Assembly: GCA_903813345.2 (NCBI GenBank)
Contig: CAIIXF020000012.1
Location: 8,886,432-8,950,431, forward strand
Origin: Owenia fusiformis
Taxonomy: Eukaryota > Annelida > Polychaeta > Sabellida > Oweniidae
Reading direction: 5' to 3'
Length of the DNA stretch: 64,000 nt
Part shown: positions 9,301 to 27,300 of the stretch, one piece after another
Layout: each line of letters opens with the position of its first letter
How positions within the stretch are numbered: position 1 is the stretch's first letter
Made by a program: the position numbers and the translations under genes
The notes under the pieces: model-generated
What the model saw: the letters and a program-made list of their open reading frames with translations, nothing else
Database searches by the model: none
What the model was told of the DNA's origin: nothing

Positions 9301-12300
9301 CTGGATTTGCCAAGGGGAGTTCACTTTTGAAAAATTTTCAGGGGGGTTCATATTTGACAATTTGCCCCAAAATGGTAAAAATCGCTTGAAAAGTGCCCAA
9401 AATGGTGAAAACTGCATGATTTTGAAAGAATTTTGGGCCGGGGGGGGGGTGGTGATCGCTATACCTATTTTCGCCTGTTTGCAATCCTCGTATCATGGCC
9501 CTGAACCCTTTGTACTTTTTGTTTAGATTTACTTCGAGCACCATCATTAACAGGGTCACATTAGTAATTTTACAACATACTTTACCTGAGAAACTAAATG
9601 TCATAAGTATACTTCTCTCCAATGGCGGTGCCCATTTTCCCCACAGCGAGTGCATGGCAGGAAAAACAACCCCCTGGAGTAAATAATACACAACGTTTCT
9701 TAAATATGCAATCACTATACCAGCAAGGGGATACGTGTACAGGAGGCAAATAGCGATCACAGATCCTGATCATTATGGCGTTTGGTGTTTTGGTTTAAAA
9801 CTATTCACAACAATCTTTACGTAAAAATAACCTGATGATAAAATTCAGCTTTCAGTTTTAGATAATGTCGAACAGCAAAATTCGGTTTCAACATCACAAA
9901 GTTTGACAAGAGCTTAAGCCAGGAAATATTAATGACGATGCACGTGATGCAGAAAACTGGAGTAGCCTCGATTATGAAAATCTGAGTCAGAAGTCGACAA
10001 AAACACGTATTTTCGTGTTACCAACCTATTTTTCGTAATTAGCATAACGCTATTCATATGTAAAAATAACTCTGCGAACGTCTGCGATTATTCTAGACTA
10101 TACGTTCGTCAATAAATCTCGACTCTATAACTATAACAATACTCCACTGGAAAATACACACGCATGATAAGTTATAGAATGAATTAAGACACTGTGGCTA
10201 GTCGATCTATGTGGATGCCTATGTGGATGCAGTCAGGCACATGTAATGTTTCGTGAGTACCCGCCTCTGTACTTTTCAATGGAAGAATTTTGCACTTCTG
10301 TTTAAATAATCTATATTTACTCATCCGTGTATATCATACTTCATTGATTTAGAAAACCAAAGCTACGCTATAAACACACATTCTCTGATATTTTTACGGA
10401 GAATAGATAACTCAAACGAGTTCACTCGACCAGTTTTATCATCTCGCTCATAGCTGTGAGAAAGTATGTATAATTTGCCATAGGTTTACCTTGTAATGGG
10501 GAATAAAAAATTCAAGTAATACAATTATTTCACATACACAAATATGTCTGTGTGAAGTAAAATACAAATACAATGCGTTCTATAATATTTTTGGAGTTAT
10601 GGTATGAAATATCAGCTTTAAAAAAGCAATTTAATTATGATGTATCATGTGGATTAGTAGACGTTCTGATTGGATTCATTGAACAGACTGGCTAGGTCTC
10701 AATTGAATCATTTTGAATGTGTGTATTTTTAATATTTTAATCCACAGTGTCCGAAAACAATAATAATGCTATATTGGTAATTGGAAAAATTCCACTTACC
10801 ACGATTTCAAAAAATTGTAAATAGATAATACTATTTTTGAATTATGGTAATTTGTTTCAAGGAATCTGGAGGCTCGTTCAGCTGAGCAGATAAAATCATC
10901 AAGATTTACGGATGGTCCATCTGTTGGCTGCTCATTGTCACCTTTAAGGAATGTTAATGGCTCTGAAACTGGTAGCCTTGCCCAAGTCGTTATTTATTTA
11001 CTTATTTGATCTTGAATTATTACCACCTTGTACAATCCAATGTATCATCGCTGATATTATGCTAAGTTATTCATCGGTTCCGAGATTCCCATAATACCTA
11101 GGCTACCTAAAGGTATCGCAAAACCATATTGATTGACAATATGGACATGGACACAACGTGTGACTTCAGGCTGATTGACCAATCAAAACGTTATCAGGTT
11201 GACCTGCATAAAAAAGCAAACTACCCGTCTAGGACTTGAAATTCAATGATCTGATAGAGTGTTTCTTGAGAGTTACAATATATTATGTTATTAAATGTAC
11301 ATTGGAATGTAAGCAGTCATTAATACTCGTCTAAATGAAATCATGCAATTCAATGTTGATTCAAAATCAAAACTGAATTCGCGATAGAAATGCACAAAGA
11401 CCTAGTCCGACAATGTAGGGCCGTGCTTGATTTGTCAAATTTTACGGACAAAAACATTGGGTTGGTAAAGCACATGGCTTTCTCTGGGTACAAGGAGGTC
11501 ATAATAGAAATCGAGATAAGTAAAATAGACCGACTTGGGCAAGGCTATGAAACTTGATTTGTGGGTACTCTGGGTCGATTGGTCTTTTGCTCTGAATTCA
11601 CTTCATTGGCGTACCTAATTTCAACATTTTCATTGTCATCATTACATGTTATAGACCCGTTTTTCAAATTAACAGTATTAGCGATAAAACCATAGTTTTT
11701 GGCTCACACAGTGAGCCTATGGGATCGACCAGGCGTCCGTCCGTTGGTCCGTCCGTCTGTCAACATTGGCTGCACAAATTAAAACTGCTATTCGGATTGA
11801 GTCATTTCCACATTCATTTTATGCATATCCATAATGTCTATTTGACCTATCATCGCCATTTCCCAAGTTCGCCCGGTTTCCGAGAAATTGCTGATTTTTA
11901 AATTTCGAGAAAAATCGATCTGATGATAGCCTTATAGAAAAGCAAGAGAAGTGAAGAAAAGATTAAAAAATACCAGTCCAGTCCATTTCCAGGTCCAAGT
12001 CCAGGCCCAGGTCCAAGTCAAGGTCTAGTTCAGGTCCAAGTCCAGATCTGGGTGTAATCAGGTTTAAACCAGGTCAAACGTCAAGAACTAGGTCAAATCC
12101 AGAACTTTGTCATTTTTTCAATTTTCTCAGTCGTCCTTGAATATTTTTGCTCCGTTTTTTTAATCATGTTCCTTGGAAAAAAGCTAATCCCTACAGGCAA
12201 GTTGTTTTTGATCACTCTTACCGTTTTTGAGATATGGCATCCGAAAAGTTAGTCACAATAAAAAGTTCTTGGAATTCAATGTATAAGTTATAAAATATGT

Positions 12301-15300
12301 GCAAAATTGTCCAAGGAATCCGAATCTGCAAACCAGATTTTGATCCGACTTCCGGTTCGGAAGTTATGGCATTTTGAAATCTCAAAAATCGCTATTTTGG
12401 TATTCCATGTTAAGTTAATGGGGCTTGAGAAAATTATCAATTGTAACAACACAACACTAGATACAGCTTGTATGCACCCAACTTAATAAGAATCTACAAT
12501 AGAAGCCGTCCTCAAAATCTACTTTCCTTCAACATTTGAACACTAAAAGGCCTAGGTCAAAATCTAGGTCAAATTCATAGTTTTTCCTTTGACTACAACA
12601 AATCATATCTGAACCAACAACAAAGGACTCATCTTTAATTGATCTCATATTTACCGATACTTTTGTTTGTAAATCAGGATATACATTCCTCTGTAGGTTC
12701 TACCCTGTGTGAGCACAGGACCGTGGGTCCTTTATTTCATCTGTAATGGCATTTTCCAGTTGATGGGTTTATATATAGTATTTTCAATTTTTCATGAGGG
12801 TGCCTTTAGACTACTTGTAATGGGGTGGCTAATTACTTTACTGAATGAGGAATGTTTATCCAAACAATGGATACAAAGAAAATCTGGCCAGTTGTCCATC
12901 AGTAAATAAATCATCATGATAAAAGTATAATTTATTAAAGCATCCATTTGTTACCGTTCTGAATCCAAATGATACATAGGTGCATCCATTTTATACATAT
13001 ATGTTGACGTTTACGAAATGCTTTTCAAATATCTTCCCTATAACAGGAATATGGTAACTGAAACTTCCACACATTGTCATACTATGTATATTGAATATGT
13101 GTGCAAGATTTCAAGTCACAATGTTAAGTAGAAACTCTGAGATCACTTACCTCGATTTGCTGTCATATTTTTGCAATGATCCCATTCCCTATAATGTACG
13201 CGAGTACCCACGATACATTACATATATATGACCGCATCCACATAGATCGACTAGCCACAGTGTAAGAAACCTTAAATATTGGATATTTCTTAAATATGAT
13301 ACAAGTAAGGTGTACTTACGGTACCCAGTCCCATGATGACCCTGCAGATAAATACTATCGAATAATGAAATCGAGCACCAATTGGAATGAGCACCATGGC
13401 AATAACGGTCAACAACATTCCGCCTCCAAATACCGTTTTCCCGCCAAACTTGTCAGCAATCACCCCAGCCGGAAGTTGGGTTAAAATATAGCCATAGTAA
13501 AACGAGCTTAACATGAAACCCTGCATGGATCGCGACCATTCGAATTCGCCTGGCTAAAAAGAAAATGTATATTGATGTTAAGAATATACTTTTTTAGTCT
13601 TTTGATTTGCGGTTGGTGTTTCGCCTATACTATGTAATCAGTAACGAATATGGTGAAACCTGTATATTCAAACACCTCCCTAATCTGAACACCTCCCATT
13701 ATGAACACTTTTCTTGCCCGTAGCCAGCTTTTACCAGGGGGGGGGGCTTTTTTCCAGGGGGGAGCTTTTTCACAATTTTGGCTAAAAATCATGCGAAAAA
13801 TTCTCAGAATGGTGAAAAACTGCATGATTTTGAAAGAATTTCTGGCCAGACCCAGCTCCCCCTCTGGCTACTGGCCTGCTTTTTTCCTGTCCCATTGTTT
13901 CCTTTCAATGTTAAAAACCTAAAAATGTGAATACTTTCTAATCCAAATACTTTTAGCCGGTCCCAATTTGCGTTGACAAGTTTTATTTTACAAGTACATG
14001 GATTCTATTTATATTCCTAGATGGACTGCTGTGGGGTGGCCTCACAAGATAGAAAACCAAATGGAAGCCACTTATGAACAGCTTGACGAAGATGAAGAAA
14101 GATTCCGTAAACTACAGCTTACTGATCAAGCTAACTTCAATGACAGACTGGATACATTGCAGGTAAGTTGAATCACGGAACCTTTTACACAGAGCAGTTT
14201 AACAATAAAAGCTGAAAAATAAATAGGACTTTGTGGATAAAACCTCAAAAATTCTTTGTTACAAAGCTTTTTTCAAAATGCTTCTAAAAAAGCAATTATG
14301 CCTCATAACATTTTACACGGGCTTTGTATAAATATTACAAATAGTGCTATAAATTGCTTTATTCTTTATGAAACCTTGCTATTTAACATAGGAGAATTTG
14401 TATAGTTTTATTTTGACCAGCCCGTATTATCGGGAGTGTGACACATTGTCTTTTTGTTGAACCACTGAGCAATGTCTTCATAAACTGTTGTCTCTGTCAC
14501 ATCAATCGCATTCAGTTTATCACAGAGAATTTTCCATGGTTGCATTCCTAAATATTGCTGCCTAGAATGTGTAGTATAAAGCCTTCGCCATTGGAAGTAC
14601 TCATTATAAGCTGTGTTATTTTTGTCAAGCATTGTGATATATTCAGCAAGTGCTTTTGGAGATTTAAAATCGTCAACATTTATAAAGGAATTTGGAGGTG
14701 ATTGTGCTATGTAGTCACTCTTAGGAGCCCAAATAATGATTGGTATCACGTTTTGGTCATAGCAAAGAAGCCAAAGTTTCTCTGTTATATATTCCATGCA
14801 ATTACTGTTTTCAAATGCAAGGAAAAATTTGTGCTTTTTAATTTCACCACAAGGTGTCACATACTGTTGCCCAGGACATTTCTTGTTCCCACAATAGCCA
14901 TAAAAATCAAGGGAGACATACTTCTCAAGTTCTTTTACATAACTAATTCTATTGTTTAATGTATTTGAGCAATGGCTTATAACAGCTGATACGAGCACTG
15001 TGAAAAAAGCCAAATATAGTTTGTACAATAGCAAACTATTTTTTAGAATAACCCCCATATAGTTTGAATTTCACCTAAAATATGGGCGAGAATAGTTTCT
15101 CCCATATTCCTAAAAACGGAACACTTTAATATAAGTCCTGATATACTCTCCGGTACGCCCATATAAACTAAAATAAGTTGCATATATCATTGCAGAGTGT
15201 ATATCTTTACTGAACTATTTTCCACTTATATGCCTCAAAGTAGGAATCAAACCTACTATATGCGGTGAAAAACAACTTATATTAAATAAAAACAGACTAT

Positions 15301-18300
15301 ATGAAATTATACTTGACTTATTCTTCTCTTATTCTACCTCAAAACAAACTATACGCGTCTTATACGCGATATTACGTAATAGCTTCAGTTCCCGAGTTTG
15401 TTGTTTTAACAGATTAAAAGCAAAATCCAGCACTGAATGTATTTTGTTTTCAATGCTAATTAATTCGCTTGTTCAGATTAATCTGGTCATTTCTATAACT
15501 GAGGGTTCTAATTTCCATCAAAAAGTCATTTATAAATTAAGCTTTTTACTTTTACTAAATTGGACAATGACAGTCGAATTATAATTAACACCGTGTTAAA
15601 TTTTGGATTCATTTCATTAAGTCTGTGGAAAGCTACATTTTTCAATTCACTTGGTATTGAAGTAAAAATAATATAGAATAAAATGTTTAATATAGTTGCA
15701 ATAAGAGGGTATTGTAGAGAATATTTTTTCCTGTATGGTAGGCAGTTATTTCCTGTATTATAGCGGAATAAGGTATAATAACTATTTTTAAAATTAATTT
15801 TTTCTTTAATAATATTATTCGTGTATTATTATTTGAAGGGAACAACATATAATTCCATATAATATAGAATAATATTCTAGTCAGGAGCAAACAATATGTT
15901 GGCATTTGCAATCAAAACCGGATTATATGCGTTTATTTTTGAGCCGTTAATTCCTAAGTATTCCATTCCTATGAAATGAGTTTCGTTCACATTAATTAAT
16001 CCGTTTGTCAGGATTAATTTCTACAGCTGATGGTTCTTATTTCTCAAAAAATTATTTGCAAATTAAGTTTTTACATACATTTATTTATTTGATTGTATAA
16101 TGTCCCTCGAGTTATGATTAAGATTGTGTTAAATTTGGGATTCAATCGATCAATCCATTGGAAAGTTAATTTTTTATTCTTAATTAATGAGTTTTCCTCA
16201 CATTTCTACTCTATTGTTTCTCTGTCACATCAGGTTTACAACAAACAACATTTAAATCCCCCTCTTACACAGGTACGAACAACCACCTGTACTATTCACT
16301 TTGCCAACCAAAAACAGTCATGACACGGATCTGCTCAATATTCAATTAATATATTACGCATTTTATACAAGCCCGTACCTAAGGACCCCCATCCCCTGGT
16401 CAACAATTCTTTAAAGAAATGCAGTTTTCACCATTCACATACATGTATTGACATGTCAGAGCAATTGTAATTAGTAAAACTTTAATCCCTAAGTATCAAT
16501 TTCTATGAATTGAGTTTTGTTCACCCTGATAAATAATCTGTTTGTTAGAGTTAATGGATTGATTTCTTCAGCCTATGGCTCTAAGTTCCACAAAAAAAAA
16601 CAAATTAAGTTTTTCATATTTATTTGATTGTATAGTGTACCTCGTGCTATGATTAACATTGTGTTAAAATTTGGATTCAATTGATTAACTCATTGGGAAG
16701 TAATTTCTTGATTTTTAATTATGGGGTGTCCTCACAATTTAACTCCATTGTTTCTCTGTAACATTAAGTTTAATACAACAAACAACATTTAAAGCCCTCT
16801 CTTACACAGACACAAACAAACACCACTATTCACATCGTAAACCACACACAACGTTTATAACACAAAATTGCAAAAATATTCAGCTCAATACATTACGCAT
16901 TTGATACAGGTCTGTGGCCATGGGGGAGGGTAGTTGGGTTCATGTGAATCCCCCACCCCCTTGCCAAGATTCTTTCAAAATCATACAGTTTTCACCAATC
17001 TGAGCACTGTCAAGTGATTTTTGGCCAACATTATCAATTTGGCCCCCCTGGGTACGTTTTGAAAATTGACCCCCTGAGCTCAAACTTATTATGAGCCTGT
17101 AATATACTAGAAATATTGCTCAGATTTTATCTGACAAATCACTTATAATAAATTAGGAAATAACATGCTTTATGTACATGATACAAGTAGTATTAAGCCA
17201 TATTAAAACAAAGTTAAAACTTGTATTCTTTCACATTTCACAATTCATGTGTTTTCTGTTATCCATATGATATCTGAGATAAACACCCGTGATAAACAAC
17301 AGAGATTAGCCCGTGCAATACAATTGTTTCTATTAGAATTGGACCATTTCTTTTTAAAACAGCTGGTTTTATCAATCTTTGTTTTCCGTTTCAATATATA
17401 CATATACAAAAGGTGCAAGATTCGGTATGTTTAGTTGATAATGTTATAATGCAAATAAAGAAACGGGCGCATTTTACATTTATTGCAAATGTTTCATCTG
17501 ACAAATTGATGATTATGTTTTGAGCAAATTGGTGCATGGAAGAACAAACTGATGCATATAACATACAGTAAGTATTAAAGTAAGACTTTAATCCCTAATT
17601 ATTCTATTTCTATAAAATGAGTTTCGTTAACACTGATAACTAATCTGTTTGTTAGAGTCAATGGATTAATTTCCTACAGCCAACGATTCTAAGTTCCACA
17701 AAAAATAATTTGTAAATTAAGTTTTTTTATATTTATTTGATTGTATATTACCCCCATGTTATGATTAACATTGTGTTCAAATTTGGATTCAATCGATCAA
17801 TTCATTGGAAAATTAATTTTTTAATTCTTAAGTAATAAGTTTTCCTCACATGTTTACTCTATTGTTTCTCTGTCACATCAAGGTTACAATAAACGACATT
17901 TAAATCCCCCTCCTATATTACATAGGCACAACCACCTGTATTCACTTTGTCAACGACAAAAAACAGTCTTGACACAGAAATGCTTAATATTCAGCTAAAT
18001 ACATTACGCATTTTATACAGACCCGTACCTAGCGACCCCCTCCCCTTGGCCAACAATTCTTTAAAGATCATGCAGTTTTTCACCATCTCGTACATGTATT
18101 GACATGTCAGAGCAATATAAATAAAACTTTAATCCCCAAGTATTTAATTTCTATGACATGAGTTTTGTTCACTGTTAACTAATCCGTTTGTTATGAATTA
18201 AAGGATTAATATCTACAGCCGATGGTTCTGATTTCCACAGCAAAAATAATTTGCAAATTAAGTTTTTCTAATTTATTTGATTCTTTAGTGTCCCTCTTGC

Positions 18301-21300
18301 TATGATTAATATTGTGTAAAAATTTGGAATTAATCGATTAACTCATTGAAAAGTTAATTTTTTGATTTTTAATAAATGACTTTTCTTCACCTTTAATCCA
18401 CAGTTTTTACCCAAATGTCGAAAGAAACAGTGAAAGGTTAAACTAGGCTCATGAGTGTTTCAATTTGAGACATAGTATGTGATGTGCTCCAGGTACATCA
18501 GTATATTAAAAAGTTCAATTTGGCGCATTAGTATAGTTCAATTTGGCGCATTATTTATGATGTTCAAAGTACATCCTTACAGTGAAAGATCAAGCTTGGC
18601 TCATGAGTATGTTTCAATTTGGGGCATAGGATGTCATGTGCTCCAAGTACATCAGTATTTTAAAAAGTTCAATTTGGCAAGTTAGTTAAGATCATTTTGG
18701 CGCGCTATTTATTATGTTCAAAGTTCATCCTTGTATTGAAAGGTTAAACTTGGCTCATGAGTATGTTTCAATTTGGGACATAGCATGTTATATGCTCTAA
18801 GTTCGTTAGTATATTAAAAAGTTCAATTTGGCGCATTATCATAGTTCATTTTGACGCATTATTCATGATGTTCAAAGTACATCCTTACATTGAAAGGTTA
18901 AACTTGGCTCATGAGTATGTTTCAATGGGACATAGTATGTAATGTGCTTCAAGTTCATCAGTATATTAAAAAGTTCAATTTGGCACATTATCATAGTTCA
19001 ATTTGGCGCGTTATTTATGATGTTCAAAGTACATCCTTACATTGAAAGATTAAACTTGGCTCATGAGTATGTTTCAATGGGACATAGTATGTGATGTGCT
19101 CCAAGTTAATCGGTATATTAAAAAGTTCAATTTGGCGCATTATCATTATTCAATTTGACGCGTTATTTATGATGTTCAAAGTACATCCTTACATTGAAAG
19201 GTTCAACTTGGCTCATGAGTATGTTTCGATTTGGGACATAGTATGTGATGTGCTGTTAGTTCATCAGTATATTAAAAAGTTCAATTTGGCGCATTAGTAA
19301 AGTTCAATTTGGCGCATTATTTATGATGTTCAAAGTACATCCTTACATTGAACGGTTAAACTTGGCTCATGAGTATGTTTCAATTTGGGACATAGTATTA
19401 TTATGATATTAAAAAGTTCAATTTGGCGCATTAGTATAGTTCAATTTGGCTCATTATTTATGATGTTCAAATTACATCCTTACAATAAAAGGTTAAACTT
19501 GGCTCATGAGTATGTTTCAATTTGGGATAGAGTATGTGATGTGCTTCAAATACATCAGTTTATTAAAAAGTTCAATTTGGCGCATAAGTATCGTTCAATT
19601 TGGCGCATTATTTATGACGTTCAAAACACATCATTATATTGAAAGGTTAAACTTGGCTCATGAGTATGTTTCAATTTTGGACATTAGTATTATTATTATA
19701 TTAAAAAGTTCAATTTGGCGCATTATTATAGTTCAATTTGGCGCGTTATTTATGATGTTCAAAGTACATCCTCATATTGAAAGGTTAAGCTTGGCTCATG
19801 AGTATGTTTCAATTTGGGACATAGTATGCTTTATGCTCTAAGTTCGTCAGTATATTAAAAACTTCAATTTGGCGCATTATCATAGTTCAATTTGGGGCGT
19901 TATTTATGATGTTCAAAGTACATCCTGATATTGACAGGTTAAACTTGGCTCATAAGTAGGTTTCAATGGGACATAGTATGTGATGTGCTCAAAGTTCATC
20001 AGTATATTAAAAAGTTCAATTTGGCGCATTATCATAGTTCAATTTGGCGCATTATTTATGATCTCCAAAGTACATCCATACATTGAAAGGTTAAACTTGG
20101 CTCATAAGTAGGTTTCAATGGGACATAGTATGTGATGTGCTTCAAGTACATCAGTATATTCAAAAGTTCAATTTGGCGCATTATTATAGTTCAATTTGGC
20201 GCGTTTTCTATGATGTTCAAAGTACATCCTTACATTGAAAGGTTAAACTTGGCTCATGAGTATGTTTCAATGGGACATAGTATGTGATGTGCTCCAAGTT
20301 CATCAGTATATTAAAAAGTTCAATTTGGCGCATTATCATAGTTCCATTTGGCGCGTTATTTATGATGTTCAAAGTACATCCTTACATTGAAAGGTTAAAC
20401 TTGGCTCATGAGTATGTCTCAATTTGGGACATAGTGTGTGATGTGCTCCAAGTACATCAGTATATTAAAAAGTTCAATTTGGCGCATTAGTATAGTTCAG
20501 TTTGGCGCATTATTTATGATGTTCAAAGTACATCTTTACATTGAAAGGTAAAACTTGGCTCATGAGTATGTCTCAATTTGGGACATAGTGTGTGATGTGC
20601 TCCAAGTACATCAGTATATTAAAAAGTTCAATTTGGCGCATTAGTATAGTTCAAGTTGGCGCATCATTTATGATGTTCAAAGTACATCCTTACAGTGAAA
20701 GGTTAAACTTGGCTCATGAGTATGTTTCAATTTGGGATATAGTATGTGATGTGCTTCAAGTTCAATTTGGCGCATTAGTATAGTTCAATTTGGTGCATTA
20801 TTTATGATGTTCAAAGTACATCCTTACATTGAAAGGTTAAACTTGGCTTTTGAGTATGTTTCAATTTGGGACATAGTATGTGATGTGCTCAAACTCATCA
20901 ATATATTAAAAAGCTCAATTTGGCGCATTAGTATAGTTCGATTTGGTGCATTATTTATGATGTTCAAAGTACATCCTTACATTGAAAGGTTAAACTTGGC
21001 TCATGAGTATGTTTCAATTTGGGACATAGTATGTGATGTGCTCAAACTTCATCAATATATTAAAAAGCTCAATTTTGCGCATCAGTGTAGTTCAATTTGG
21101 CGCATTATTTATTATAAGGTTGATCCATACTATTATATAATATGTTATAAATTGTACATGTAACCTAATGATTTGCATACAAAAATAAGTTTTCGTTCAG
21201 TGCAATCCCTCATCCTTCATAATATTTTATCCCGGGGATTTTGTACCGATTCCTTATTGTATTTCATACATTTGAATATTTTTTTCTTTTTAAAATTTAA

Positions 21301-24300
21301 AAATGCATCATCATCATCAACTTCTGCAACATAATTATACAACAATTAATTTTCCTCTAGATGGCTTCACTCTAAACCTCCGAACCCCCTCTCTGACTAG
21401 GGGTATAATTTGTCATAGGAAAGTCAGGATTGTCTCAATTTAAAACTGACAAAGAACAAAGATATCACGATACGCTTTACCTCATTTTAATTTTAACTAC
21501 ACCGAAATTGCTGCTGATTTTTGGTAAGACTAAAAACAAACTTCAAATTAATACACGCTTATTTTACTCAAAACGGAGAATAAATAATTTACCGATTTAT
21601 ATTTGAAATATACCCAAATTTTTCATTCCACTTTTTGTATTGACTTAGATTTTTAAAATGCATTTAAAGTTCATTTAAAATCATATACTTCAACATCATA
21701 AAATTTTGAATGAGATCTCAGACATTTGATTAAGCTTTCTTAAGTGAAACGCATGATTTTATTTGTTTACATTAGCGCTTAATTGAAAGATAAAATAGGA
21801 TTAACTCCAAGCAAATTAAGGCACATCAAAGAATATATAGCTTCGCGTATAAGAGGCGTATAGTTTGTTTTTGGATTACGTAATACATACTATACTCATC
21901 TTTTCTATGTACGTATATCCTACTATTCCTGGCTATTAAGAATAATCGGAGAATAGTTCAAACGATATTTTGTATCGTAGAGTATATACCACCAATACTA
22001 AATGTTCCGCTTCTGAGGCAAGAATAGTTTGTTTCACATACCGAATACAATATAGTGAGGACATACTGGACTATATTCACAAATAGTTTGCCACTTATCC
22101 GCAACTATATTTGGCTTTTTGCACAGTGGAGGGCAGTGTCATTAGCATGACAATTTGCAAAATTCTGCTTGATTTTTATGGGGTTTTCCCTTTTCTCCGT
22201 CCATCCATATGGTATTGGTACATCTGAGTCTAAACGATATGTCATACTCCAGTTAAACATTCTTTTAAATCTCCCCGACTGCCAGCCATCTCTTTTTAAA
22301 ATAATACTGGGGTGGTCATCAAAAAGCATGACCCATCTCTGTAACGAATTACGTCTTTGCGGTAGATCCTCAAATTGTCGATATATTTGCATTGGAATCA
22401 CTACCACGTCACTTTCATTTACTGTATTTCTATCAGCTGATACCAAACAATTGTCGATTGTCCAATTTTTTACTGATCCTTCTTGTATTGTGCGATTTTG
22501 ATAGCCATACCATACAACGATTTTGAATGTTTTTTGACCAGCGATAACCTTAAAATTAATCAATTCTTTTGGTTGATAATTCCCAAGCATTTCTTTCCAA
22601 ATTATGATGAAGAATGCAATCTGAAAACATAGAGCTATTAAAAGTAATTTTCTTGTCATGTTTTCTAGTATTATGTTTATTGTGTTTCCTTTCTCGAAGT
22701 TCCTTATGAAATAAATCATAATAGTTTTTTTTGTTAATAATTCAGTTGTTGTGTTAAATAAATAGACGTAATACAAATAATCAATAAAATGAATACTGTA
22801 CATCTATTACACTGAAACGTAAAATGTTGAACACCAAATGTCCAACTTCTTTTCAGAATGAAATCAATAGATACAATGGTAGAAGTTCCAGTTTGAGAAA
22901 AAATGTAATATTCATGCATGAAACCACACTTGAGTCTGCACATTTTAGAAATTACTTATGAAAGCGCAATCTGTTTTATTATGCAAATTGAAATCTTTCA
23001 ACTCAACTCAATCAACTCAAAATAAAAAATGATTCTCAATGTGATAAGTTTAACTGTAAACATTACAATTTTTCTAATATAAATTGCCATTTTAAAATAT
23101 GCGCGAAGTGAATTTGGAAGGACATAAGACAAGCTCAATTTTTCAATTAAAATGCTGACATATGGAGATTATGGCCACTGAAAATCTTGATGATCTATTA
23201 ATTAAGAATTAGAAATAGTTAGAATGTTTAACGAACATGCATGCTGTTAGCTAACATATGAGTTAGACTCTTAATGATTAATGAAGGTCTTCTGAATAAA
23301 GAGAAAAGTGTGTCTAATAATTGACATGGAAAACTAGAGTATACCGTCTCTACTTTTCTCATTTATTAAATTGTAATGTAATCCATTTCATTCTGACACT
23401 AATCCTATTTTATTTAAGATTTAAATTCTAAAAATACACTCCATTATAAAATATTGATTCTAAAAGATACATCGTTGCTTCATTGTGAATTAGTAACTTT
23501 TTGGAAAAAGCTATGATCAATAACCAAATTAAATTGGCAAATACTATGCTTTAATATTCTGATGAAACAATTTTGCTCCTAGACATCCCACCCTTGTTTT
23601 AGATTTGAATGGGACTACTACGCTACATAGGTCTACATGAACACAGTAAATAGTTAAATCCTTTCTGATACTCATCACATATTTCTGCCTTCAACGAGAA
23701 ATATGAAGGCCATGATTTCTCATGATGGGCTAAATCTTACCTATGTAATTTAATTTATGAACTTTTGGGAATTTTTGACTGGGGGTTCACACGAACTCCT
23801 CGAATCCCCGTTGGCTACGGGTAATGACGTGTTTTTACTCTCTGCATATTTTGCTGTTACATATTTGGCACAGACCATCTAATAAGGGCGCCTTCCCATC
23901 TCATAAAACCAAGGAGCCCATAGGATGTCTTGTGATCTTTGTTTATAGTTTTTGAGCGCTTAATCTATGGAAACACAATTGACTTTGTGATTCTTTGATC
24001 TTCGAATGACAATGCCACCATAATTTAGTATCACCACATGCCCATATATGGGACAGAATATCGGTGTTGCACGCTGGGAGCCAATCCTCCTTGACCATTT
24101 AGTGCATACTGGTAGGATTCATGCATTCAGTTTCTAGTGCCTTCGTTTTTGCTACATGCAAGTAGAACAATGTACCTGACAGATGCCATATCCCACAAAC
24201 TCTCTCCCCCCACTTATAGAATCTTTATTAGTAAAGCTAGGATGTTCAATTATCTACTTTTACTATAATGGTGTAATATCTTTTACAACTACAATATGAT

Positions 24301-27300
24301 GATTTAAGATTGTGTAATTTTGTTCTCAAGACAGCACATTTTATTTTTATCGCACCCTTAGGTGCTATATTGTAATCAGTTTGCCGGGCGGGTGGGCGTC
24401 CCGAATAATCTTGTCTACAGGTTTCCAGCCAAACCGTTTGGGGGATTCATTTGAAATTCTCAGGGATGTTTCTACCTATGAAAGTTTAGAACTGATTAGT
24501 TTTTCGGCATTCTGGGTAAATGTTAGGGCGGCCATTTTGGATTTTCCGTCCTAAAATCTAGTCTGTCAAGGCTTGTCTACAGGTTTCCAGCCAAACCGTT
24601 TGAGGGATTCATTTGAAATTCTCAGGGATGTTTCTACCTATAAAAGTTTAGAACTGATCAGTTTTTCGGCATTCTGGGTAAATGTTAAGGCGGCCATTTT
24701 GGATTTTCCGTTTTAAAATCTTGTCTGTTAATTGGCTTGTCTACAGGTTTCCAGCCAAATCGTTTGAGGGATTATTTGAAATTCTCCGGGATGTTTCTAT
24801 CTATGAAAGTTGAGAACTGATTAGTTTTTCGGCATTCTGGGTAAATGTTAAGGCGGCCATTTTGGATTTTTCGTCCTAAAATCGTGTCTGTGAAGGCTTG
24901 TCTACAGGTTTCCAGCCAAACCGTTTGAGGGATTCATTTGAAATTTTCGGGGATGTTTCTACTTAGCTATGAAAGTTTATAACTCATTAGTTTTTCGGCA
25001 TTCTGGGTAAATGTTAAGGTGACCATTTTGGATTTTCCATTCCGAAAAGTGTATTCTGTTCAAGGGTGCGATTCTGTTCACCTTGTGGCTTATTTTTATT
25101 TATTTCCTAAATCCCAAATAATACAAATACAATCACAACAGTGGAAGAAACCCCAAGGGCCATATGATCCATTTTATACTAAACAAAAAATATTAACAGG
25201 AAGCAACTGTTTGTCCATCTGTCTCGCGAAATCATTTGCCTTAAAACCTCTGTCGATAGGATTCCCGTTTTAAGTTATTTGTGTTCAACATCAATATAAA
25301 AAACTCCCCTGTGACTCCTGGTTCAAAAGCTCGACTATTTTCAAAATGGCCGCCATTTTTGTTTCGCGAAATTCACTTTTGGCCTATTTCCTAGCTTTAC
25401 AAATAATTTCAGGTGCCCCGCATTGTAAAAACCATGTCACTGTAAAAAGTAGTTGTATGAAAAAAAATTGTTGCAAAAAATCGGCAAAAAATCATATCCG
25501 TTTTTTTTATTTTCAGCCATTTTAGTTAACATTGATTTGTCCATTTGTCTTAGTCAGTCCAAAATAGTGGCAAGTTTTAAAACCTCTGTCTGTCAACACT
25601 TGGCCTTTGCTCGCCTTTTTTCAATATGGCCACCATTTTTTTCTCACAAAATTCCTAGCTTTACAAATAATTTCAGGTGTTCTGCATTGTAAAAAAACAT
25701 GTCTTTGTAAAGAGTAGTTGTATGAAATAATTTTGTTACAAAAAATCGGCTAAAAATTGTATCCATTTTTTTATTTTCTGTCATTTTAGCCATCATTCAC
25801 TTTTGAGCAACACCATGTGAGCCCAGTACCCACGGTACTATTTATTTTGTAAAGGCGAGAAAAGTATGGAATAAGATTATAATATAAGTAAAACACATTC
25901 TTAATCGAACAAAGTTTGGGGGGGTATAGAGTAAAGAATAGGTATTTGAGGGTGAGCCCTGGACATAACCAAGTTGATTGTAGAAATGGTGACCGGCCTT
26001 TAACAGTATGAATATTTGTGATATCAATTAATTTGTGTAAACGTCAATAATGATGCATCGCTACACTCCTTGAGTCAAAAGTGGTGTGTCTATATCTAGA
26101 GATATCGAGAAGGGACATTGACTTTTGACTGATGGGTGGGCTTTGTAGTTAGTGCTCTTGCGTTGTCAGCAGGTAATACGTGCGTCGGACAGTGTTTCGA
26201 CCCATTATTTTCTGGACAAAGTGGACAGCTAGCACATGTGGATCGATGAGGTTCTTTACAGACCCTCACCCGCAGGTGGGCACCATTGGTCATTCCGCTT
26301 CAACCACAGCCATCTGGAGCAGGATTCTGCCGCAACACCAAACTTATTCCATGTGGGTTAATTGTTGGTAGGGTAGGGTATGGTAGGGCAGGTAATTATG
26401 GTTGGAAGTAAGAACATTTTTGATTTTCAATATGCCAGCGGGCATACCCCTAATGTGTTGATTGTTGCTAGGATGTGTTGCCAGAGATTGGTGATTTGTG
26501 TGTGATACCTGGATTATAGAGTGTGTCAGCAGTTGGTTGGCCTTTTCGTTCATTCACCTCTTGGACTGCAATGTGGGTACTACTAGTTTCATATTGTGGA
26601 ATATTGTATTGTTGTTTTAGGTAGACTAGTATAAATCTACCCATTCGAGTTGGTCACCGAGGGTCATAGCAGCCGCCACAAGGCAGCAGCCCTTATTAAA
26701 ATGCTAAATACCTGTATCCGTAGTATGTTGATCGTTTGACCTGGACTGATTCTTGAATTGAAGGGAACTTGTCCAAAGGCCTTGAAACGCCAAATACCTA
26801 GCTATTTACTTGAACTTGAGATGACTTTGACCCCACGTCAACTTATCATGCGATCATGAATCAGCAAGTGTCACAATATCCTTCAAGTGCCTTAAAATGG
26901 CACTTGAAGGATATTGACCTTTGACCTTGACCACTATAATGATCGCCTAATAATGGGTCGCCAATGGTCACAGCAGCCCCGAAAGTCTAAAAATGCCAAA
27001 ATACCTAGATATTGACCTTGACCTCAGGTCACCTATTCTTGGGTCGCCAAGGGTCACAGCAGCCCCCGGGGTCTTTAAAACGCCATATACTTAGATATTG
27101 AACTATGAGATCACCTTGGGATGACCTTGACCCATAGACATTGACCTTGACCTCAGGTCACCTACTTATTGGTTGCTTAGGGTCACTGCAGCTCCAAGGA
27201 CCGTTTTGAATCACAAAATACTTCAGACCTTTGATCTAGGAATGACCTTGACCTCAGGTCACTTAATAAAATGTCACCAAGGGTGACAACAGCCCCAAAT

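Follow-up and report, generated by a model that had tools for sequence, protein, structure and literature searches.

A CACTA-like transposon within a segmentally duplicated fucosyltransferase gene of the annelid Owenia fusiformis

The window considered here, a stretch of 64,000 nucleotides from the annelid Owenia fusiformis (contig CAIIXF020000012.1, positions 8,886,432 to 8,950,431), carries on its minus strand a GT10 fucosyltransferase (FUT) gene that is split by an element of 7,133 bp. The trinucleotide GAG, which is CTC in gene sense, stands at both edges of the element, and its inverted ends match each other at 25 of 26 bases. Excision of the element together with one GAG gives a frame of 419 codons from stop to stop, which, counted from the ATG at 22659, comprises 371 codons and a stop codon without any internal stop. 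In Pfam, the N-terminal half matches PF17039 (GT10 N-terminal, E 2.1e-19) and the C-terminal half matches PF00852 (GT10 C-terminal, E 2e-47); with one GT10 domain in each half, the insert falls between both domains. An earlier note on this DNA had described the insertion as precise and the frame on either side of it as intact. The insertion is confirmed as observed, and neither FUT half contains a stop or a gap.

An intact FUT paralog is present in the same genome at C11:25328787-25329899 (L061). It is 93% identical to the joined protein of the window, contains no stop and no insert, carries both PF17039 and PF00852, and has FUT9 as its best solved-structure match (E 1.9e-33). Among the matches listed, the next best protein matches after this copy and the window halves are 48% identical, and short partial FUT matches reach up to 53% identity. 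The C11 DNA provides the empty site: there CCCTC is followed directly by GCATCAG, whereas the window reads CCCTC, the element and then CTCGTATCAG. The C11 gene is nested antisense in a DNAH1-like dynein gene, whose exons, read by eye, combine into a sequence that aligns with DNAH1 chains along its whole length (203 of 203 residues). Dynein exons flank the homologous block on both sides in C11, and the window has one exon. When the window was compared with a 23.9-kb C11 stretch, no further homology was found beyond short repeats near 55 kb. The window copy, on C12, is therefore most simply the derived one, and we infer that the segment was copied from C11 to C12. The earlier note's reading of a split gene holds as regards the precise insertion, but it had overlooked that an intact gene exists of which the split one is a segmental duplicate (Table 1). 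Because the intact C11 gene exists, the insertion probably costs the animal little.

Table 1. Coordinates of the features at the split fucosyltransferase locus, in positions of the window
Feature	Positions	Strand	Evidence
GT10 fucosyltransferase N-terminal half, codons 1-177, final codon CTC	22129..22659	-	PF17039; joined frame; C11 paralog with 93% amino acid identity and without the insert
Target-site duplication GAG, right copy	22129..22131	.	Exact 3-bp duplication in 31 of 31 end pairs
CACTA-like non-autonomous DNA transposon, 7,133 bp	14996..22128	+	Family shared with 30 other paired copies
Left terminal inverted repeat, 26 bp; in gene sense contains a strong acceptor-like CACAG^TG	14996..15021	+	
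Right terminal inverted repeat, 26 bp; in gene sense contains a weak donor-like CACT^GTG	22103..22128	-	
Left subterminal region with CAAACTAT motifs	14996..15445	.	Motif count
Right subterminal region with CAAACTAT motifs	21679..22128	.	Motif count
Internal tandem arrays, main unit about 154 bp	18427..21112	+	Tandem Repeats Finder
Target-site duplication GAG, left copy	14993..14995	.	
GT10 fucosyltransferase C-terminal half, from the duplicated Leu codon to the stop	14408..14995	-	PF00852
Chimaeric open reading frame (ORF), 220 codons (25 element codons, Met codon starting at 15058, and the C-terminal FUT half in frame)	14408..15070	-	T to A at 15027
Single axonemal dynein heavy chain exon (DNAH1-like), brought by the segmental duplication	14021..14162	+	C11 homology
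Duplicate of a C11 segment of about 2.35 kb, broken by the element and, at 13713-13878, by a repeat of 166 bp	13629..23336	.	

The GT10 family is large in this genome, with 89 matches to one FUT protein, many of them in single open frames. Some FUT paralogs do split into exons, as would be expected if the insert were an ancient intron common to the gene family: matches end at residues 205-225 in 19 cases and begin at residues 225-232 in 22, and one stop-containing match starts at residue 180 (C3:6989176), next to a C3 match that spans residues 47-219. However, this common break lies about 40 residues downstream of the insertion site. Once the window halves (2 of the 89) are left out, 55 of the 87 remaining matches, 52 of them stop-free, cross residues 167-187, no stop-free match starts or ends at residues 165-190, and the closest paralog, in C11, has the empty site. 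On the strength of the C11 empty site and this survey, an ancient intron is taken as refuted for this genome, as the earlier note's reading requires, and retains next to no probability.

The element belongs to a family of many copies. When 3 mismatches or fewer are allowed, its 26-bp end pattern occurs 86 times in the genome of 498 Mb (45 forward and 41 reverse) and the reversed control pattern 0 times, so the pattern is not a product of chance; a looser pattern gave 88 matches, with 2 in the control, and reached only 3 places beyond the stricter set. Sixty-two of the 86 matches form 31 convergent pairs of 4.7-17.4 kb, the window copy included. The other 24 are unpaired within 20 kb and their flanks were left out; one of these, with 3 mismatches, may be unrelated. 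Exact 3-bp target duplications bound all 31 pairs, while a match length of 2 or of 4 bases is seen in 0 pairs and one of 5 in 1; the element is therefore mobile and hardly an assembly error. Since the ends and the duplication of the window element follow the rule of the 30 other copies, an assembly chimaera at one or both junctions, of which there is no sign, is left with a probability close to nil. Among 16 sampled copies, the pair L080 and L086 is separated by no more than 0.15% along 2 kb, and the family has therefore been active recently. Only 1 of the 31 copies, that of the window, lies in a recognised host coding frame. At C12:8987933 and C12:8988088, two right-type family ends share one orientation at a spacing of 155 bp, and the listed matches include no left end in their vicinity.

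As the earlier note had proposed, the element is CACTA-like, and it is a non-autonomous derivative. Autonomous CACTA / En-Spm members need a Tnp2-like transposase, and CACTG is accepted as a variant of the CACTA ends. With this group (the CMC group) the element shares CACT-initial ends, 3-bp target-site duplications in 31 of 31 paired copies, a repeated subterminal motif and a long non-coding interior; it differs in its fifth base, G instead of A, and in that no Tnp2-like transposase was seen inside. The ends of the group are given as CACTA...TAGTG in one source (PMC4158355), whereas all 31 paired copies read CACTG...CAGTG, so that strictly the ends are CACTG and not CACTA. The motif CAAACTAT, chosen after inspection of the ends and counted in the window copy only, occurs 7 times, always within the terminal 450-bp stretches and never in the 6,233-bp interior; base-shuffled sequence contains it 0.06 times on average and at most twice in 500 shuffles, and the element thus possesses subterminal repeats. 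Of 26 occurrences of the shorter AACTAT, 15 are in the element interior. The longest stop-to-stop frame wholly within the window element is 137 amino acids (aa), in the tandem array, and that of a 16.6-kb family copy on C2 is 135 aa. No Rfam family matched in the window at gathering thresholds. None of at least 14 Transposase_21 matches, among the matches listed, lies inside a paired copy. Nine Transposase_21 matches on C1, C6, C7 and C9 are equal in score and in open-frame length (608 aa) and are therefore probably near-identical copies; they lie far from the family ends and likely represent a recently active transposon.

Two other classes were considered. A 5-bp target duplication, as for Transib / RAG-like elements, is not the rule here, where 1 of 31 pairs matches over 5 bases. 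Chapaev3 elements resemble the family in their 5'-CAC/GTG-3' ends and 3-bp duplication, but their target is TWA (PMC4079192), and here the targets are varied, with TWA in 4 of 31, which speaks against Chapaev3. As for a CACTA element within a gene, TgmR in the soybean R (MYB) gene is likewise a large element with a 3-bp duplication and subterminal repeats; unlike the present element, which lies in a coding frame, TgmR is described in PMC4219821 as intronic, with the gene still spliceable.

Read as DNA, the N-terminal half of the split gene runs 7 codons into the element and then stops, and the C-terminal half is without a start of its own. With its GT10 domains separated by the element, the C12 copy most likely makes no enzyme. 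As to the intact frame claimed in the earlier note, 371 codons are indeed open; what was missed is residue 265, which is Trp in the window copy and Gly in the C11 copy, in 7 of 7 other paralogs and at the corresponding position of both aligned fucosyltransferase structures. This change is the only telling one among 25 amino acid differences. We consider it highly probable that a duplication to C12 was followed by a CACTA-like insertion disrupting the copy. A 2.35-kb piece of C11, holding the FUT gene antisense in the DNAH1-like gene and one dynein exon, would have been copied to C12; later, a non-autonomous CACTA-like transposon, presumably mobilised by a transposase encoded elsewhere, would have inserted by cut-and-paste at codon 177 of the C12 copy and duplicated the 3-bp target CTC/GAG. 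Judged from the sequence, a loss-of-function insertion in a redundant gene is most likely. The event is well preserved, but it is an ordinary transposon insertion as a kind; its value is that the succession of duplication and transposon disruption is clean and can be dated, with an exact paralogous empty site, a dynein-nested parent gene and 31 paired copies for the dating. We found no report of this insertion in the literature listings, a weak negative, as the searches could not target the organism.

The enzyme could survive if the element acted as an intron. In gene sense, the junctions read CTC CACT^GTG...CACAG^TG CTC, and splicing at these points would leave CACT, TG and the 3-bp duplication, that is, 9 nt encoding His-Leu-Leu in frame. 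The product spliced at the element ends is open for 374 codons, both FUT halves being free of stops and gaps, and the acceptor-like TTTTTTCACAG is strong, only 2 of the 365 AGs of the region, itself included, reaching its score. CACTA ends sometimes serve as intron ends, according to PMC4219821. On the other hand, ACT^GTGCAA makes a very poor donor: its score is equalled or exceeded by 252 of the 385 GTs in the 8.5-kb region, itself included, and no donor scoring above 4 lies between 400 bases upstream of the junction and 1,000 bases into the element, by donor and acceptor matrices not trained on the Owenia fusiformis genome. Furthermore, the window copy has Trp in place of the conserved Gly, and one family copy of 31 in a host coding frame is not an intron-like distribution. 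With the in-frame geometry and the acceptor good and the donor poor, splicing was rejected as the principal explanation, and we regard it as very unlikely. The family ends show the pattern CACT^GTG...CACAG^TG on both strands; if splicing did occur, copies with a 3-bp duplication in coding exons could be removed with exactly three in-frame codons left behind, which would make the family a built-in, near-harmless passenger.

Introners derived from DNA transposons, as presented in PMC9860276, are similar in being non-autonomous, in having terminal inverted repeats and target-site duplications within a coding frame, and in their acceptor-like end; unlike them, the window family is not seen spread through coding frames and has no usable donor in silico. 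An introner family was rejected, the window copy being the only one of 31 in a recognised host coding frame. In 13 of the 31 copies a junction-spanning frame of at least 60 codons is found, a length below which shorter exons could escape. Seventeen such frames of the other 12 copies were compared with Pfam, and only L019 matched, to a LINE-type endonuclease (query limited to the first 273 of 606 residues).

Another way for the gene to have outlived the insertion is exaptation, in which the C-terminal half, with its expression starting in the element, would become a new type II membrane protein that owes its Met and much of its hydrophobic anchor to the element. The T to A change at 15027 is found in the window copy only; it turns into Leu an in-frame TAG that 30 of 30 other copies keep, opening 216 codons from the Met, and the 19-residue hydropathy peak spanning the junction is 2.16, compared with 2.13 for the parent anchor. 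However, with 5 changes in 200 bp, it is not rare for one of them to strike a 3-base target; the chimaeric ORF also lacks the N-terminal domain, and its C-terminal domain carries Trp in place of a conserved Gly. Such an exaptation has a very slim chance. Taken jointly, the two ways in which the insertion would not have killed the gene, by splicing at the element ends or by use of the left end as the anchor of a new truncated FUT protein, have a slim one.

As for timing, the C11 and window FUT sequences show a synonymous divergence (dS) of 0.070 and a nonsynonymous divergence (dN) of 0.029, with a dN/dS of 0.41. Between the two loci, divergence reaches 7.4% in the 5' flank, where there are 9 internal gaps, and 3.1% in the 3' flank, dynein exon included, where there are 2. 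There are 0 gaps in 1,116 coding positions versus 11 internal events in 1,150 aligned flanking positions. For an unconstrained copy about 5 gaps would be expected in the gene, with a chance of zero of about 0.005 by a rough Poisson estimate; the copy was therefore probably under constraint during most of its existence and disrupted only late. In a divergence tree of 16 of the 31 family copies, the window element has a terminal branch of 1.18%; it shows 14 private changes in 1,980, and over its first 2 kb the nearest of the 15 other copies differs at 36 of 1997 positions (1.8%), in line with the earlier note's view of a fairly recent event. From these divergences, at about 1.2% per lineage for the insertion against about 3.5% for the duplication, the insertion looks the more recent event, at roughly a third of the duplication's age.

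Several points weigh against duplication followed by a late, recent disruption, or against parts of it. The pairwise dN/dS of 0.41 is not divisible between the C11 and C12 branches. The 3' flank, with a divergence of only 3.1%, leaves room for a later duplication than dS would indicate, which would narrow the interval between the two events. Over the outer 100 bp of both ends together (200 bp), the window element departs from the majority at 5 positions, a maximum among the 31 copies that it shares with L045; this argues against a very recent insertion, although the private changes in the 2-kb comparison number only 14. In simulation, 30% of runs remain free of stops after 20 random substitutions, so the absence of stops says little on timing. 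Finally, no family transposase was found in the interiors of the two copies read (window and C2). A relaxed constraint on the C12 copy was also considered and rejected: set against 7 paralogs, two of which (L064 and L065) are identical in sequence, the 25 amino acid differences comprise 7 C11-like, 4 C12-like, 6 both and 8 neither, with no clear excess.

At the borders of the duplicated segment, further repeats are found. The C11 homology spans 13629-23336 except for the element and the repeat of about 166 bp at 13713-13878, which has many matches, is absent from C11 and is, by our guess, SINE-like. On the left, the unique part of 13263-13700 matches only itself, the other listed matches being the 166-bp repeat, and the border sequences gave no candidate for what carried the segment. 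On the right, a many-match repeat (23336-24348) sets in exactly at the border, 23336, and may have to do with the copying mechanism; beyond it, at 24410-25038, lies a 162-bp tandem array.

A second, different inverted-repeat element of 3,073 bp lies nearby at 10190-13262, with ends beginning CACTGTGGCTAGTCG and TAAGA flanks. Its end does not fit the protostome RAG-like consensus given in PMC7204232. The longest frame inside it is 101 aa. Its end pattern has 396 matches in the genome, and of 10 pairs whose flanks were compared, 8 carry a duplication of 5 bp, one of 6 bp and one of only 1 bp. A duplication of 5 bp is the length typical of Transib/RAG-like elements.

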